A DNA stretch of 64,000 nucleotides, taken from contig NC_007955.1 of assembly GCF_000013725.1 (NCBI RefSeq), positions 1,705,579 to 1,769,578 on the forward strand. The letters run 5' to 3'. Within the stretch, counting starts at the first letter, position 1; each line of letters opens with the position of its first letter. This DNA comes from Methanococcoides burtonii DSM 6242. Lineage in GTDB: Archaea; Halobacteriota; Methanosarcinia; Methanosarcinales; Methanosarcinaceae. Made by a program: the position numbers and the translations under genes. The notes below the pieces were generated by a model. That model saw nothing but the letters and a program-made list of their open reading frames with translations. It searched no databases and was not told the DNA's origin. Below, in pieces: positions 2,170 through 43,966 of the stretch.

Positions 2170-3456
2170 ATGATAAAACCAAAGGATGCAATTAGTGCCG
2201 GTGTTGTGAAGAAGCAATACATACTCGGCAGGAGAGATAATAACGAGGAGGGAGTTCTCAATATTGGAAGATATCTCGCGCTTGATCGTTCTTCAGGTTC
2301 ACATGTTGCCATTGATGCCCTCAGGCCCCATGCAATCCTTATATGCGGCAAACGGGGATACGGCAAATCCTATACCATGGGAACCTTGATCGAAGAGATG
2401 ATATTACTTCCACAGGAGATCAAGAAGAACATAGCGACTCTTGTCATTGACACCATGGGAATATTCTGGACCCTTGCCAAAGGCAACGAACCACAAAAGG
2501 AACTGCTCAAGGACTGGGGATTAGAACCAAAGGGATTCGATGTAAATGTGTTTGTGCCTACAGGACATGTCGATGAATACACAAAACGGCATATTGACGT
2601 CATACCTTTTTCAGTTCCTGTTGCTCACTTAAAGGGGTATGACTGGTGCGACCTTTTCAATATCGAAGAAACATCCCCTCTTGGAGTTCTACTTGTAAGG
2701 ACCATTGAGGACATGCGTGAAGCAGAGAATGAGTTCTCCCAGGGAGATGTTGTCAACAGTATAAATGAGGATGAAAGGTCGGATGAGATAACTAAAATGG
2801 CAGCAGAGAACTATTTCAGGACAGCTGCTTCCTGGGGGATCTTTGAGAAGAACGCAAGCGGTTTTTCAGAACTTATCGAAAGCGGCTCTACTGCCATACT
2901 TGACGTAAGCTCTATCAAGAACAATATTGTGCGCTCTGCTGTTGTGGCGATCATTTCAAGGGATATCTATGCCAGACGCTTGCAGGAGAGGCGCACGTAT
3001 GAGAGAATGAGCATGGGAGACGGAGAAGTCGTGCAGGAGATGCCCATGGTCTGGATGTTCATCGATGAAGCACACCTTTTCGTGCCCTCTGAAGGAGAAA
3101 AACTTGCATCCGAGGCCCTTATCAATGAATGGGTGCGTCAGGGAAGGCAACCGGGATTGTCCATAATCTTTGCAACCCAGAGACCTGCGGCAATTCATCC
3201 AGACATAATCTCCCAGTAGGACCTTGTAATGTGTCACAGGCTCACAGCAAAAGAGGATATCGAAGCCCTGGAAGCTATGCGCCCAACATATATGAGAGAG
3301 AACATAGGAGATTCCATAAAGAAGATGGGAGCCGAACGAGGTATTGCTTTTGTTGTTGATGATACATCAGAGAGCACGCATCTTGTAAAAGTGAGACCAA
3401 GATATAGCTGGCATGGCGGCAATGAGCCAAATGCATTGAACCGGAGGGATATTTAA
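2170..3456 (+). CDS. HerA-like/DUF87 ATPase with in-frame UAG codon (possible pyrrolysine)
   Basis: A P-loop ATPase of the HerA/FtsK group: Walker A GKRGYGKS at residues 60-67, Walker B in MVWMFIDEAHLF near 294-305, and the downstream FATQRP motif. Codon 350 (3217-3219) is TAG. The same frame continues for 78 more codons (DLVMCHRLTAKEDIEAL...), which is the conserved C-terminal part of the family, and ends in TAA. That TAA shares one base with the ATG of the next gene (TAATG), so ribosomes probably reach it. In Methanosarcinaceae UAG can encode pyrrolysine, so one full-length protein of 428 residues is favoured over a pseudogene, but readthrough is inferred. Related proteins act in DNA translocation or end processing. 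Confidence 0.75.
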
Positions 3457-4397
3457 TGGAACTTAAGAAAAGCGCAGACATGGTAATTAACACCTGTATG
3501 GGTGCAAAGAAGGGAGAGACAGTGCTTATTGTCACCGATACATGCACTGATAAGATGATCTCAGAGGCACTTTATGATTCCGCAGTGGATGCGGGGTGTG
3601 AGGCCATACTACTCACAATGGAACCCAGAGATCAGCACGGTGCTGAACCGCCTGTCCTTGTTGAGGAAGCTATGAAAAACGCAGATGTTCTTCTTGCCCC
3701 TGCTTCAAAGTCACTGACCCATACACAGGCACGTAAGAAAGCTTCTGATAACGGTACCCGCACAGCTACGATGCCGGGGATCAATCTGACCATGATGCAG
3801 GAAGGAGGATTGAATGCAAATTATGAGGATATAGGAATACTTGCGGACGAACTTCTTGAGACACTAAAAGGATCGAAGGAGGTTCGCATCACCACCGAGA
3901 AGGGGACAGACCTTGTCCTTGATGTGGAAGGCTGTGAGTGGATGGCCGATACAGGAATGTGCCATGAGAAAGGCACTACCTCGAACCTTCCGGCAGGAGA
4001 GATGTACATTGCCCCGAAGAATGTGAACGGCAAAGCCGTCATTGATGGGTCCATGGGAGGTATCGGGTTGCTGGACAAGCCATTGGTCATAGAGATCAGG
4101 AACAGGTCAGCAGTTAGTTTTGAAGGAGAAGGTGCGGAAAAACTTGAGGCGATGGTGGAAAATGTAGGGGCTGACGGGCGCAATATTGCAGAACTCGGCA
4201 TAGGGATAAATCCTGCGGCGCGCCTTATCGGAGTCATCCTCGAGGATGAAAAAGTGGGAGGAACGATACACATTGCATTGGGAGATAATTCCACATTTGG
4301 AGGCGATGTGAAAGTTGACCTGCACCTTGATGGCATAATTACTGAACCAAAGGTCTTTGTCGATGGGGTTGACCTGAATGTCAAGCGTTTTGCTTAA
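3456..4397 (+). CDS. M29-like aminopeptidase (AmpS/leucyl aminopeptidase family)
   Basis: A 313-residue cytosolic protein resembling archaeal thermophilic-aminopeptidase (M29) homologues. The C-terminal GIGINPAARL and the HIALGDNSTFGG segment are typical of the metal-binding half. It is shorter than classical M29 enzymes (about 370-410 residues), so substrate and activity are uncertain. Its ATG overlaps the stop of the HerA-like ATPase by one base, indicating translational coupling and a shared transcript. Confidence 0.75.
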   Translation: MELKKSADMVINTCMGAKKGETVLIVTDTCTDKMISEALYDSAVDAGCEAILLTMEPRDQHGAEPPVLVEEAMKNADVLLAPASKSLTHTQARKKASDNGTRTATMPGINLTMMQEGGLNANYEDIGILADELLETLKGSKEVRITTEKGTDLVLDVEGCEWMADTGMCHEKGTTSNLPAGEMYIAPKNVNGKAVIDGSMGGIGLLDKPLVIEIRNRSAVSFEGEGAEKLEAMVENVGADGRNIAELGIGINPAARLIGVILEDEKVGGTIHIALGDNSTFGGDVKVDLHLDGIITEPKVFVDGVDLNVKRFA

Positions 4398-6687: not shown

Positions 6688-7547
6688 TGTGCCAGTCCAT
6701 GAAATATTATTACGATATTTTGGACGGAATCTGTACCAAAGATTCAATTGCTAACTATCTGAACAATATAATGTATCAATATCCAATTTTTGTATTTCTT
6801 AGATCTCGATGACATTGCATCTTATGTTGAGAGTGGCCATTATGCCGATAAGGACTGGTACTTCAGGCATAAGGTTTCGTCAATGATAAAGCTCATCGTT
6901 ATGAAATGTTATAGAAACCCCTCATTTGAGAAAACAATAACGGCATTATGAATCTTCCATCCCCTGCAACACTGCATCATTTTGTAAAATACAGACTTGG
7001 AGAAACTGGATTCGATGAAGTAATGTTCAAAATTGGAAAGAATATCTCCAAAAATACAAAGATAAGAGATGCGAAAACAGATTCAACTCCACTTGAAGCA
7101 TCAAGATATGACAAGTATGCAGATTACAATCCGCATTATAATTGTAAGATGGACAAAGTTCACATCACCATGATTGGAACACTTCCAATCTATATAACTC
7201 ATACAAAAAGTGCTTATCACGATTCTCCTGAATTGAAGAAACATATTGATGCATTGGTAAAAATGGGAGTGAAAAAACAGGCAGGGATGCACTTGCGAAA
7301 CAAGAACATCGAAGATGATAGATTCGATGAAGATTATTTGCATAGGAGTGAATGGGAACGAGTACACAAGCATATTAAATGGACTGTAAAGTTCGATATC
7401 AGTGGAATGAAAAATGGTAGTAAGAAACTGTATTCAATTATGAATTTCGTTACATATCAATTGCTTGTAGCTACAAATTTGCAAAATGAGTTAGTATCTT
7501 TAACCTCATTTTGCAAATTATGTATGAGCTTGATGTCATCAAATTAG
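6688..7547 (+). pseudogene. Degraded DDE transposase remnant
   Basis: Three reading-frame pieces in a row. An N-terminal stretch starts at 6688 and ends in a stop near 6810. A frame continuing DIASYVESGHYADKDW breaks at 6950. The main piece starts at 6948 and contains the transposase-like segments IRDAKTDSTPLEASRYDKY and KKLYSIMNFVTYQLLVATN. At least one frameshift and missing C-terminal catalytic sequence show it is dead. The IS family could not be assigned and no clear terminal repeats were found. Confidence 0.6.
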
Positions 7548-16500: not shown

Positions 16501-17119
16501 AACAGCATCATACTACAACAATTCTGCAAAAACAGGCACGCACAATCTTACAGTGTTTGCAGAAAATACAAATGGAACTGACCAGAAAAAGTGGACTTGG
16601 ATTGTAGCAGCACCACCTGCACCATCAATTACACTTTCATTACCCTCATTAGTTTCTGATGTTGAAGGTGATTCAAGATCTTTCACGGCAACTATAGACC
16701 AAGTCGCCAACGTGACTTGGATATTTGATGGTATAATTCTTTACACCAACACATCAGTCACAACAGCGGCATACTACAATACTTCTGCGCATGAAGGTGT
16801 GTATAATATCACAATAGTGGCAGAAAATGCAAACGGAGCCAGCCAGAACAAATGGACGTGGACTGTCACCGATCCAAACCTGTACACAATGCAACTCCAG
16901 AAAGGATGGAACCTTGTTTCCACTCCACTAACACCTGACACGCCAAGTGTTAACACGCTCTTTGGTAGCAACAGTGATGTAATTTTGCCAGTGTACTCAT
17001 GGAATACTGCAAACAAGCAATACTATGATGTGAGCACGATCGAGATTAGCAAAGGATACTGGATTCTTGCTTTAAACGACACACAAGTCACGTTTGCAGG
17101 TACGTCATACAGTGAATGA
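13517..17119 (+). CDS. Large secreted beta-helix (NosD/CASH-type) surface protein
   Basis: 1200 residues. A Sec signal peptide (hydrophobic core AGVVVAILVLAVG, cleavage near SASAA) is followed by about 600 residues of parallel beta-helix repeats rich in NNT, YGI and SN turns, starting with the typical YYENVVVNKTLSLVGIG. A ~130-residue region (VWFELRMNGNRIDDEV) then resembles S-layer domains. Four Ig-like repeats of ~85 residues follow, each with DxEGDSR and VTWILDG, then a LQKGWNLVSTPL module. The start at 13517 follows AAGGTGA. There is no membrane anchor. The role is probably cell-envelope binding or adhesion. Confidence 0.85.
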   Translation: MVKNRALRVFAGVVVAILVLAVGSASAAAITVDDSGGADYLSIQAAINNASVGDVIEVQSGTYYENVVVNKTLSLVGIGMPLINASGSGTAMTITTDDCTIDGFNVTGSGTDWNGGDADSGIKIMSDDNTVLNCIAQSNNYGVYVFESENNTIENNSVYSNTEGIYLLYSHNNSLISNNLSSNTNRGAYISNSDNISVLSNVAQNNDYGINWYISGNSTVFNNSATSNNYGMYLSSSENCNLDNNTAYGNTNHGIYSDSSGNIFTNNTAYSNIYGLYTTGSSSTLANNIAYSNKYGFYTTGSSSTLTNNIAYSNRYGFYTTGSSSTLTNNTAYSNTNRGFTIHTRSTLIDNNAFNNGYGFWIESDYNILTNNTASDNANYGFYIYIGDYNKLTKNTANSNSNYGYYIIGNYNTLTKNNVSDNSGGIHLTSGGASRGSNLLIQNTIINNSNYGIYLSYSGINILMYNVVSNNTNTGIYISDSKYNTLTNNVVSNNTNNGIYLTSSSDSTLTNNIVSNNTNHGIYLSNSIDTKLLYNLIFNNTNTGVYLFNSGGGALANNTIDNSNDGIYIDQGTTSQSSIYNNTLLNISNHGAYDIKGLNSWHSNYYDDYNGIDSNNDGIGDSAYYIAGNDVGLRDETPLMQPHQIIIPDNDYNNENTYLGASFTVKAGTAILLYEGYSLVPLQFDVSGEKVWFELRMNGNRIDDEVLEIGSYFSYVGSQNQLILTGRLDSISQADNSMKMDSFYQFSQPLTNREILIGDTSDIPYPNPTITLPNPSSSLVSDIEGDSRLFTMNVNQVSDVTWILDGITLYTNTSVTTASYYNGSAQLGTHNLTVVAENTNRKTSQKNWTWTVTEPSAPSITLSSPSSASISDIEGDSRTFTTTVDQVVNVTWILDGNTIQTNTSIQTASYYNGSAKVGIHNLTIFAENVNGTDQNKWTWTVTEPPAPSITHSSPSSVSISDVEGDSRTFTTTVDQVANVTWILDGNTIQTNTSIQTASYYNNSAKTGTHNLTVFAENTNGTDQKKWTWIVAAPPAPSITLSLPSLVSDVEGDSRSFTATIDQVANVTWIFDGIILYTNTSVTTAAYYNTSAHEGVYNITIVAENANGASQNKWTWTVTDPNLYTMQLQKGWNLVSTPLTPDTPSVNTLFGSNSDVILPVYSWNTANKQYYDVSTIEISKGYWILALNDTQVTFAGTSYSE
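14336..14524 (+). repeat. Three 63-bp tandem repeats in the beta-helix gene
   Basis: Three consecutive 21-codon units (14336, 14399, 14462), each encoding YG-YTTGSSSTL-NN-AYSN, are almost identical at DNA level. This suggests recent expansion of beta-helix rungs. Confidence 0.85.
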
Positions 17120-17132
17120 ATGGGGCGACATT

Positions 17133-18383
17133 ATGTCAAAAATGAAGTTAATTGTAGCGTTTGTTTTATTGATGGCCATGTGCACAGGTGTTGCCGGTGC
17201 CACATGGACCTCTTCGATGTATATCACAGCCCTGCCTACATCAAGTGATGGTAGTTCTCCACCGCCACCACCGGCTACGTATGTGCGCATTTTTGGTGTT
17301 GATGACAATGCCACAGATGGCTTTGACAGGGATTACGATGTCACCGCGCCGCCTGCACCAACGGTTGATGCACTTGATGCATATTTTCCATGCACCCATG
17401 AAGTCGTAACGCGCCTTGCGGCCGATATGAAAGCAGATGCGGACGCCATCACATGGACTTTGAAGGTCACAGTTCCAAGTGGGTCTACTCTTGATATGAA
17501 TTGGGATGTGAGCAATTCTCCTTCCGAGAAAATGCTTGTAATGAACACTGGCAGTGCAAGCATTGATATGAAAACTCAAAGTTCCACCACTTTTGAAACC
17601 GGAAGTTATTCATTGTCCATAACTTCAAGCAAAATTGTGCAAGATAATTCCACCCCAACCCCCTCCTCATCAGGCGGCGGTGGAGGCAGCGGCACATCCG
17701 GTGAAGAATACGAGAACATCGAAGTAAAAGACGTCGTGCACAAACATATCGTAATGGATGAAGAAACGTCATACGAATTCAAAGACGAATCAAATGCCAT
17801 CGAGACAATAAAATTCACTGCACTCAAGAACGCAGGCGAGATCTCAGCAACGATCGAAGTGCTCAAAGGAAAGTCAGCATTGGTGAAAAATGACCCGCCG
17901 GGCAGGGTTTACCAGAATCTGAACATCTGGGTCGGGAAGTCTGGATTTGCGACATCGGACAATATTGCTGATGTGAAGGTCGGGTTCAAGGTTGAAAAGT
18001 CATGGATTGAGGCTAATGACATTGTTGTAGCAACGATCAGGTTGTGCAGGCATCATAATGACGTCTGGAATCCTCTCCCAACCAATAAGAGTGGGGAGGA
18101 TGATACGTACATCTACTTTGAGGCAAAAACACCCGGATTCTCGCCGTTCTCGATAATTGGCAGCACGGAGGAAGATCTGGTAGCACAGGGCGCAGACACA
18201 GAGCCAATGTCAACTGCCACATCGGAGCAGACCAGTACACAAGATAGTAATGGTGAAGGGAAGCAGAGCGATGAAGGTATCTCAATGTGGTACTTGGTCG
18301 GCGCGCTGGCAATAATGCTCATCGCCGGTGGCACATATTTGATGTACAGGACTAAAAAGGATGAGGACGGGGAAGTGTTGTAG
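17133..18383 (+). CDS. PGF-pre-PGF domain surface protein with C-terminal membrane anchor
   Basis: 416 residues: signal peptide (LIVAFVLLMAMCTGVAGA), a proline-rich stretch (SSPPPPPATY), a beta-rich domain, a Ser/Gly linker, then the conserved PGF-pre-PGF domain (from EYENIEVKDVVHKHI to TPGFSPFSIIG) and a C-terminal helix (WYLVGALAIMLIAGGTYLMY) with a charged tail. It is anchored outward on the membrane. It starts 13 bases after the beta-helix gene, so the two are probably one operon. It ends in TAG, unlike the other intact genes here. Confidence 0.82.
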   Translation: MSKMKLIVAFVLLMAMCTGVAGATWTSSMYITALPTSSDGSSPPPPPATYVRIFGVDDNATDGFDRDYDVTAPPAPTVDALDAYFPCTHEVVTRLAADMKADADAITWTLKVTVPSGSTLDMNWDVSNSPSEKMLVMNTGSASIDMKTQSSTTFETGSYSLSITSSKIVQDNSTPTPSSSGGGGGSGTSGEEYENIEVKDVVHKHIVMDEETSYEFKDESNAIETIKFTALKNAGEISATIEVLKGKSALVKNDPPGRVYQNLNIWVGKSGFATSDNIADVKVGFKVEKSWIEANDIVVATIRLCRHHNDVWNPLPTNKSGEDDTYIYFEAKTPGFSPFSIIGSTEEDLVAQGADTEPMSTATSEQTSTQDSNGEGKQSDEGISMWYLVGALAIMLIAGGTYLMYRTKKDEDGEVL

Positions 18384-42286: not shown

Positions 42287-43022
42287 TGGTATTTAAGTAG
42301 AGTTTATATAGTATCAGGGCCTATGTTTGTGCATGAACTGTCCCAGGTGCAAGAGCTCAAGTCATAAAAAGAACGGTAAAATCGATGGACGCCAACGCTA
42401 CAAATGCCATGATTGTGGGTATAGCTATTCAGTAGAGATTAAATCAACTGCTAGTCCCATGTCTGTTAAACGGCAGGCTTTACAGCTCTATCTCGAAGGA
42501 TTAGGATTTCGCTCAATTGGACGTTTATTAGGAGTTAGCCACGTTTCTGTCCAAAAATGGATAAAGAAGTTTGGTCGTGAATTAGAGGATATAAAGAGCG
42601 AAAATGAAATATCGATCGTTGAATTAGATGAAATGCACACTTACATCGGGAACAAAAAAAATATTGTTGGATCTGGATTGCTGTTGATAGAGATGGAAAA
42701 AGGTTCATCGACTGCTCTTTTGGTAGCAGGGGGAAGGAAACAGGACTAAAGCTCTGGAAAAAGTTAAAGGGGAAGGAGATTGGAGAAGTGATGACTGATC
42801 ACTGGAGGGCATATGCAGAGTTTCTTCCAGAGAAAATTCATACTCAATCCAAAGCTGAAACATATACTGTTGAAGGATATAACAGCATATTCAGGCACTT
42901 TCTGGCAAGATTGAGAAGAAAGTCAAAGTGTTATACTAAGAGTCTTGAAATGCTGAAGTACTCTGTTCTTCTTTTGATGAAGTACAGAAATAAAGAGCTA
43001 GCTATGTTTAGTTAACAATGCC
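42282..43022 (+). mobile_element. IS1-family insertion sequence
   Basis: 741 bases with ends GGCATTGGTA and TTAACAATGCC, matching the GGCATTG-type ends of IS1-like elements. Flanks CTTTATTT and CTTTTTTT are similar but not identical, so target duplication is unproven. Its right side joins the truncated ISH3-like copy 2; its left side cuts an unknown gene. Confidence 0.72.
42327..43015 (+). CDS. IS1 transposase read by -1 frameshift (InsA-InsB')
   Basis: Frame 1 (42327-42749) encodes an InsA-like zinc finger (CPRCKSS...CHDCGYSY), an HTH (RSIGRLLGVSHVSVQKW) and the first catalytic Asp (IVELDEMHTYIG). At the A-run near 42653-42660, a -1 shift leads into YCWIWIAVDRDGKRF, then MTDHWRAYAEF and YNSIFRHFLARLRRKSKCY with the remaining catalytic residues, ending at 43015. 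The slippery A-run is where IS1 elements use programmed frameshifting. It seems intact. Confidence 0.75.
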
Positions 43023-43966
43023 CTTTTTTTATATTCCTCAGGAACATTCTTTATAAATTCCCCACTTGACAACACTTTTTTATTTGTTGCAAATAAAACA
43101 TACCCTTTCTCTTTGCCATACATTGCCACAATATTGAAAGTAGGCCCTCTCTTCCGAAAGAGATATTCAAGAACATTAGAGCATTTCCCATACTTCTTTT
43201 CGTGTTCTTCAAGTATCCGTTTGATTCTTTTGTTTGATTTTGCAGCGATGACATAATCCACTTTTTGATTATCCAACTCTAAGATCACATCTAAATTGAA
43301 AAATTCTCGATCCATAAAAACGGTGCCAATCTTAACACCAATTTTACCAACTCTTTCAATCAATGATTCTATAAGGATAGAATAATTTTTGCATAATCCA
43401 TTTATGTCAATTACATCCAGAGTAAGTTTATTCTTCCCAATGATGTCTAAAGTACAAAACGAACGACCCCATGAAGTTCCATTTTTTGGTTTTATACCTC
43501 TCACTCCTGCACTATTTTTGTCGCCATAATATGGAATATCATGAAAATCAATAGCAATGTCTTGAACTGTGTTTTCAAGTTTCATCATTTTGTAGATCTC
43601 AAAACTCATATTCCTGAATTTATGAAGAATATCTTCCACATTATTGTACTTGATATACTCGAAAATGGTATCAGCAGATAGTATTTTTTGAGTAGAGTTT
43701 TTAGAGATTAAATCATTACTTGCCGATTCAAGAGAGTTAGTAGAGGATGTTGCGGCATGTAACATGACTGTGACAACATCTTGGTAATCAAATTTTACAT
43801 TTGATGGCAAGGTTATTATATCGTTTTTACTAAACAGTTCTGATGATACGGCCAGCAAGCTGGCAGTGTTTTCGAAATTCATGGAGCTATTGTTGTTGTT
43901 CACATACAACAATTCCATGTTTTTGGAAAAAGTGTTTTTGGTAAAATCATTGTAATTGGATAGCAT
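42998..43966 (-). pseudogene. ISH3-like transposase copy 2, C-terminus lost
   Basis: It has the intact N-terminus missing from copy 1 (MLSNYNDFTKNTFSKNMELL) and the first two catalytic segments (AIDFHDIPYYG, VFMDREFF). Homology ends at the IS1 border near 43023 just before the Glu-containing segment, so the enzyme is inactive. The two copies are very similar over the shared part. Confidence 0.8.

Follow-up and report, generated by a model that had tools for sequence, protein, structure and literature searches.

The window analysed here, a 64,000-nt stretch of the Methanococcoides burtonii genome, carries a HerA-like ATPase gene whose reading frame is crossed by a TAG triplet at codon 350, raising the question of whether this triplet ends the protein, marks a gene in decay or is read as an amino acid. 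The TAG follows 349 open codons and is the sole interruption of a frame that continues for 78 more codons up to a TAA (Table 1). The initial annotation held that the UAG is likely read as pyrrolysine (Pyl), a proposal which is supported by the pyl gene cluster of the organism, by the sense codons of its relatives and by purifying selection on the sequence beyond the TAG.

Table 1. Features of the ATPase locus (positions in the window)
Feature	Position	Strand	Remarks
HerA/FtsK-superfamily ATPase gene	2170..3456	+	ATG at 2170; 428 residues when UAG is decoded; ends in TAA
Walker A motif, residues 60-67 (GKRGYGKS)	2347..2370	+	Conservation across 45 sequences
In-frame TAG, codon 350, putative pyrrolysine	3217..3219	+	Ser (TCA/TCG) in sister species
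78 post-TAG codons	3220..3453	+	Last RecA-like core strands and C-terminal segment; conserved
True stop TAA	3454..3456	+	Overlaps the start codon of the downstream gene (TAATG)
M29-type metallopeptidase gene, downstream, likely same operon	3456..4397	+	Pfam Peptidase_M29, E 6e-11

The protein belongs to the HerA group by its central ATPase domain, Walker A motif and RecA-like fold (Pfam, Foldseek). Two Pfam profiles score above the gathering threshold, DUF87 before the TAG and HerA_C spanning it, and within the Walker A motif G65, K66 and S67 are invariant and G60-G63 nearly invariant among 45 archaeal sequences. An AlphaFold model with a mean pLDDT of 88.8 finds its best Foldseek matches in HerA structures (prob 1.00). 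Like the hexameric HerA DNA translocases (4d2i, 9x1l, 8xau), the ATPase combines a RecA-like fold and Walker A motif with an ATQRP segment; unlike them, it comprises 428 residues at 12–18% identity and remains below the NCBIfam equivalog cut-off, with NF040937 and NF040819 giving 27–33 bits against cut-offs of 800–970. Matches to PADLOC HerA-type and mad8 models are weak and partial, and no defence role is claimed. Homologues are found in 104 of the 112 family genomes, of which the weak matches may be paralogues.

The 78 codons beyond the TAG had been described as family-like, and this description is borne out by 99% identity to M. alaskense over all 78 residues and by 11 positions that are invariant in the 45 archaeal sequences (D351, R357, T359, D363, L367, G391, D397, D398, E401, H415, and G417). 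In the AlphaFold model, codon 350 falls in the short turn that links helix 344-348 to strand 352-355, flanked by the invariant residues Q349 and D351, and further strands are predicted at 392-397 and 402-408. A 349-residue product would thus, according to the model, lose three core strands together with the eleven invariant residues. The pairwise dN/dS of the post-TAG segment is 0.016–0.024, and the lineage-specific changes in M. burtonii amount to 8 synonymous and 0 non-synonymous after the TAG (20 and 7, respectively, before it); some of the post-TAG changes may predate the TAG, so that constraint is seen for the lineage and not strictly for the time since the mutation. Judged by these substitutions, purifying selection acts on the segment in the lineage of M. 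burtonii, and the gene presents the in-frame UAG with conserved coding continuation by which Pyl-containing proteins are recognized. The same data bear on the foremost rival explanation, a young pseudogene in which the TAG would be a nonsense mutation leaving an inactive, truncated 349-residue protein, with decay of the downstream part yet to come. This reading is improbable, as the gene carries no second lesion and the eight unique changes past the TAG are all silent.

Which residue the TAG replaces was examined in 82 homologues of more than 50% identity, some of which represent one genome taken from two collections. On this check, which the initial annotation had proposed, relatives have a sense codon at the site: Ser stands opposite codon 350 in 67 of the 82, Cys in 14 and TAG in M. 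burtonii alone. The Cys-type homologues form one group of 67–69% identity which includes ANME-3-type MAGs, while more distant archaeal sequences also show Ala, Met or Thr in this column. Sister species use TCA or TCG at the site, and a single C-to-A change in TCG is therefore enough to create the TAG. A conserved functional Pyl site of the MtmB/MtbB/MttB type was considered and rejected, given that TAG occupies position 350 in 1 of 82 alignments and is shared by no orthologue. A TAG that is private to one lineage, in a column tolerating Ser, Ala, Cys, Met and Thr, instead has the features of a neutral site; its restriction to the M. burtonii genome would also be expected of a pseudogene.

The junction with the downstream M29-type peptidase gene, an adjacency kept in Methanococcoides, had been taken to show that ribosomes pass the TAG, since the last A of the TAA is the first base of the peptidase ATG. 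This argument does not hold. The identical TAATG junction occurs in three sister species which have no TAG at codon 350, so that the coupling is an inherited feature with no evidential weight of its own, and it was discarded as proof of readthrough. In the remaining half of the genus the ATPase ends in TGA, followed by a spaced ATG. In G021, the MAG of a close relative, the ATPase gene has been reduced to its two ends (L115, G021:C75, about 2938-3205) by an internal deletion of about 1 kb and also carries a frameshift. The gene is therefore dispensable there, with the caveat that G021 is a MAG, and its loss in so close a relative lends the pseudogene reading some plausibility.

The presence of pyl genes, which the initial annotation had asked to be sought, is clear. 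The M. burtonii genome, a single contig of 2,575,032 bp, holds in one cluster pylT (tRNA-Pyl, anticodon CUA), pylS, pylB, pylC, and pylD, with all four proteins scoring above their NCBIfam cut-offs. This is the complete set (pylT, pylS, pylBCD) that characterizes a Pyl-decoding organism, and its completeness argues against a UAG that merely inactivates the gene. Within the family, pylS exceeds its cut-off in 100 of 112 genomes.

TAG usage was surveyed with a dicodon gene finder over 464 kb of the M. burtonii genome. The 477 ORFs called end in TGA (238), TAA (219), or TAG (20), which places TAG at 4.2% of ORF ends, whereas non-coding DNA has TAG as 19.7% of its stop triplets (P = 3e-23). Within the window, 4 of 63 called ORFs end in TAG, and the earlier statement that nearly all other genes avoid this stop is confirmed at both scales. 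The three besides the ATPase lie at 42998-43966 (-), 6948-7547 (+), and 17112-18383 (+); one is a DDE transposase and two are without a Pfam match, the in-frame tails of the transposase and the other two reaching the next TGA or TAA after 24, 6, and 7 codons.

As a control, every ORF was extended in frame beyond its stop codon, and the extended frame was aligned with 400 kb of M. alaskense sequence. Among the 12 TAG ORFs with a homologue there, nine align across the TAG, six facing a sense codon (Ser twice, Lys twice, Tyr, and Glu) and three facing a stop. These three comprise a gamma-carbonic anhydrase, where the stop of the relative is itself TAG, and two genes classed as MtbB- and MttB-like by family sequence. 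For TAA and TGA ORFs with homologues (n = 336), 88 alignments cross the stop, of which 86 face a stop and two face sense over 16–19 residues at 21–31% identity, both judged spurious. The contrast was tested with the two spurious cases counted (Fisher P = 1e-8). In the reverse comparison, the seven TAG ORFs of M. alaskense give two sense and three stop alignments, and TAA/TGA ORFs give three alignments to sense, of 17–31 residues and 41–59% identity, mostly with stops nearby. The control over 464 kb speaks for TAG being, in the main, a sense codon in M. burtonii. Moreover, TAGs with a conserved continuation are frequent and convincing TAA or TGA counterparts absent, a bias which random pseudogenization would not produce.

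Further in-frame TAGs are found within the ATPase family itself. M. alaskense has one at codon 82 of the same gene, where its closest relatives have CAG, and the orthologue in G048 (L048 / G048:C1:11646-12884), a genome placed in one genus with Methanolobus genomes, has one at codon 75, just after the Walker A motif, at a position that is an invariant Glu in the other aligned sequences. Both organisms possess pylS. Three unshared TAGs at three positions fit a drift of Pyl codons into the gene, not a conserved recoding site. Some of them could be recent pseudogenes, for which codon 75 of G048 is a real possibility.

In other genes of the M. burtonii genome, in-frame TAGs stand opposite sense codons of M. 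alaskense in ThiI, a tRNA 4-thiouridine synthase (G000:C1:1404769-1405698, minus strand; codon 310, aligned with a Tyr of M. alaskense, and 93% identity past it), in an ADP-dependent phosphofructokinase/glucokinase (G000:C1 1424502, minus strand; Lys), in a CrcB-like gene (G000:C1 1500541, plus strand; Lys), and in two genes named by eye, a VWA-type gene (G000:C1 1513643, plus strand; Ser) and a large surface-type gene (G000:C1 1566189, minus strand; Glu). The gamma-carbonic anhydrase-like gene (G000:C1:1637289-1637915, plus strand; locus L170, also L171-L174) scores 336.7 bits with NF040597, below the cut-off of 380. Its TAG at codon 91 is common to five Methanococcoides genomes at 94–97% identity; the other members of the genus have Gln at the site, and Leu, Ile or Gln stands there elsewhere. 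By this distribution, the anhydrase TAG is a shared candidate Pyl site outside the methyltransferases and more notable than that of the ATPase.

Taken together, the comparisons make it very probable that UAG 350 is decoded as Pyl to give a full-length, 428-residue HerA-like ATPase, and that the substitution is likely neutral. The most likely origin of the TAG is one C-to-A exchange, along the branch of M. burtonii, in a TCG codon for Ser. The TAG would have persisted in a genome which has nearly abandoned TAG as a terminator and which decodes it without a dedicated cis signal, Pyl-tRNA(Pyl) reading the codon to yield one full-length product. The predicted sequence across residue 350 is QPGLSIIFATQRPAAIHPDIISQ-Pyl-DLVMCHR, with EDIEALEAMRPTYMR as a predicted stretch beyond it. 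We infer the actual incorporation of Pyl into the ATPase, its efficiency and its neutrality. The exchange, from Ser to Pyl, would put Pyl in place of a variable small residue, within the turn that leads into a core strand, and is in all likelihood neutral. A special role near the ATPase core, as suggested in the initial annotation, finds no favor in a site that varies among Ser, Cys, Ala, Thr, and Met in the pattern of neutral drift. That Pyl at this position alters or regulates the ATPase, tying the motor and the coupled M29 peptidase to methylamine metabolism through Pyl supply, is improbable.

How the UAG is shared between decoding and termination bears on a further rival. The genome contains a single aRF1 above cut-off, in agreement with the one release factor homologue listed for M. 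burtonii (PMC2933860), and some termination at UAG is therefore expected; a second release factor sparing UAG was rejected, the other matches being weak and partial. The pylB gene itself stops at TAG directly before the pylC ATG (L113:8250-8252, minus strand), as is known for M. burtonii and others (PMC2933860). This ending just ahead of pylC recurs in 11 of 12 genomes examined, and reading through it would add 43 residues overlapping pylC. Because pylB ends in TAG, the triplet is not absolutely sense and still terminates at least one protein. No PYLIS-like structure was detected downstream of TAG 350 (z = -0.37), a structure which is thought to be unnecessary for UAG decoding (PMC9499178).

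Such competition would allow a regulated dual product, in which the UAG senses Pyl supply and yields 349 residues when Pyl is scarce and the full length on methylamines, ATPase activity and coupled M29 translation following methylamine availability. UAG decoding and release-factor action are considered to be in competition (PMC9499178), one such factor being present, the TAATG junction would couple the next gene, and Pyl decoding in Acetohalobium has been reported to depend on the carbon source (PMC8211752). Nevertheless, site 350 is not conserved even inside the genus, no special structure lies downstream, and a 349-residue form without the core strands is more likely non-functional than an alternative product, which makes this explanation improbable. 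Least credible of all is a sequencing error at a Ser codon, which the single genome of the species and the one base between TAG and TCG would permit, but errors would not so selectively produce in-frame TAGs without TAA or TGA counterparts in both this genome and a relative, and the genome is assembled as a single contig.

The preferred reading, neutral decoding of UAG 350 as Pyl, has its closest precedent in Thg1, the tRNA-His guanylyltransferase of Methanosarcina acetivorans, which likewise has a species-private in-frame UAG in a non-methyltransferase gene of a pylTSBCD organism, with relatives lacking the UAG. It differs in belonging to another protein family and in that Pyl translation was studied there by experiment and is inferred for the ATPase. 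The Thg1 Pyl is not essential for activity and has been ascribed to "appearance by neutral evolution" (Heinemann et al., 2009, summarized in PMC2933860). Neutral drift of UAG in other genes has also been discussed (PMC3639795), and the main text of Pyl gene predictions covering M. burtonii names no HerA or ATPase gene (PMC3639795, PMC1242214). The UAGs of MtmB, MtbB, and MttB are read by the same tRNA-Pyl/PylRS system, and such UAGs are also present in the M. burtonii genes resembling MtbB and MttB; in contrast to the unconserved UAG at the variable ATPase site, however, the methyltransferase UAGs are conserved across species and catalytic. An archaeal "Pyl code" with genome-wide use of TAG as pyrrolysine has reportedly been described by Kivenson et al. 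in Science in 2025. M. burtonii resembles it in being a Methanosarcinaceae genome with TAG depleted as a stop and placed inside many ordinary genes, and differs in that its pylB retains a TAG end.

The ATPase gene represents a clean candidate for pyrrolysine outside the methyltransferases. Annotation under the standard code will truncate ThiI, the ADP-dependent kinase, CrcB, the VWA-type protein, and the HerA-like ATPase or call them pseudogenes. As the three TAGs at different, unshared positions of this gene family illustrate, Pyl may drift freely into proteins once TAG has been freed from termination.
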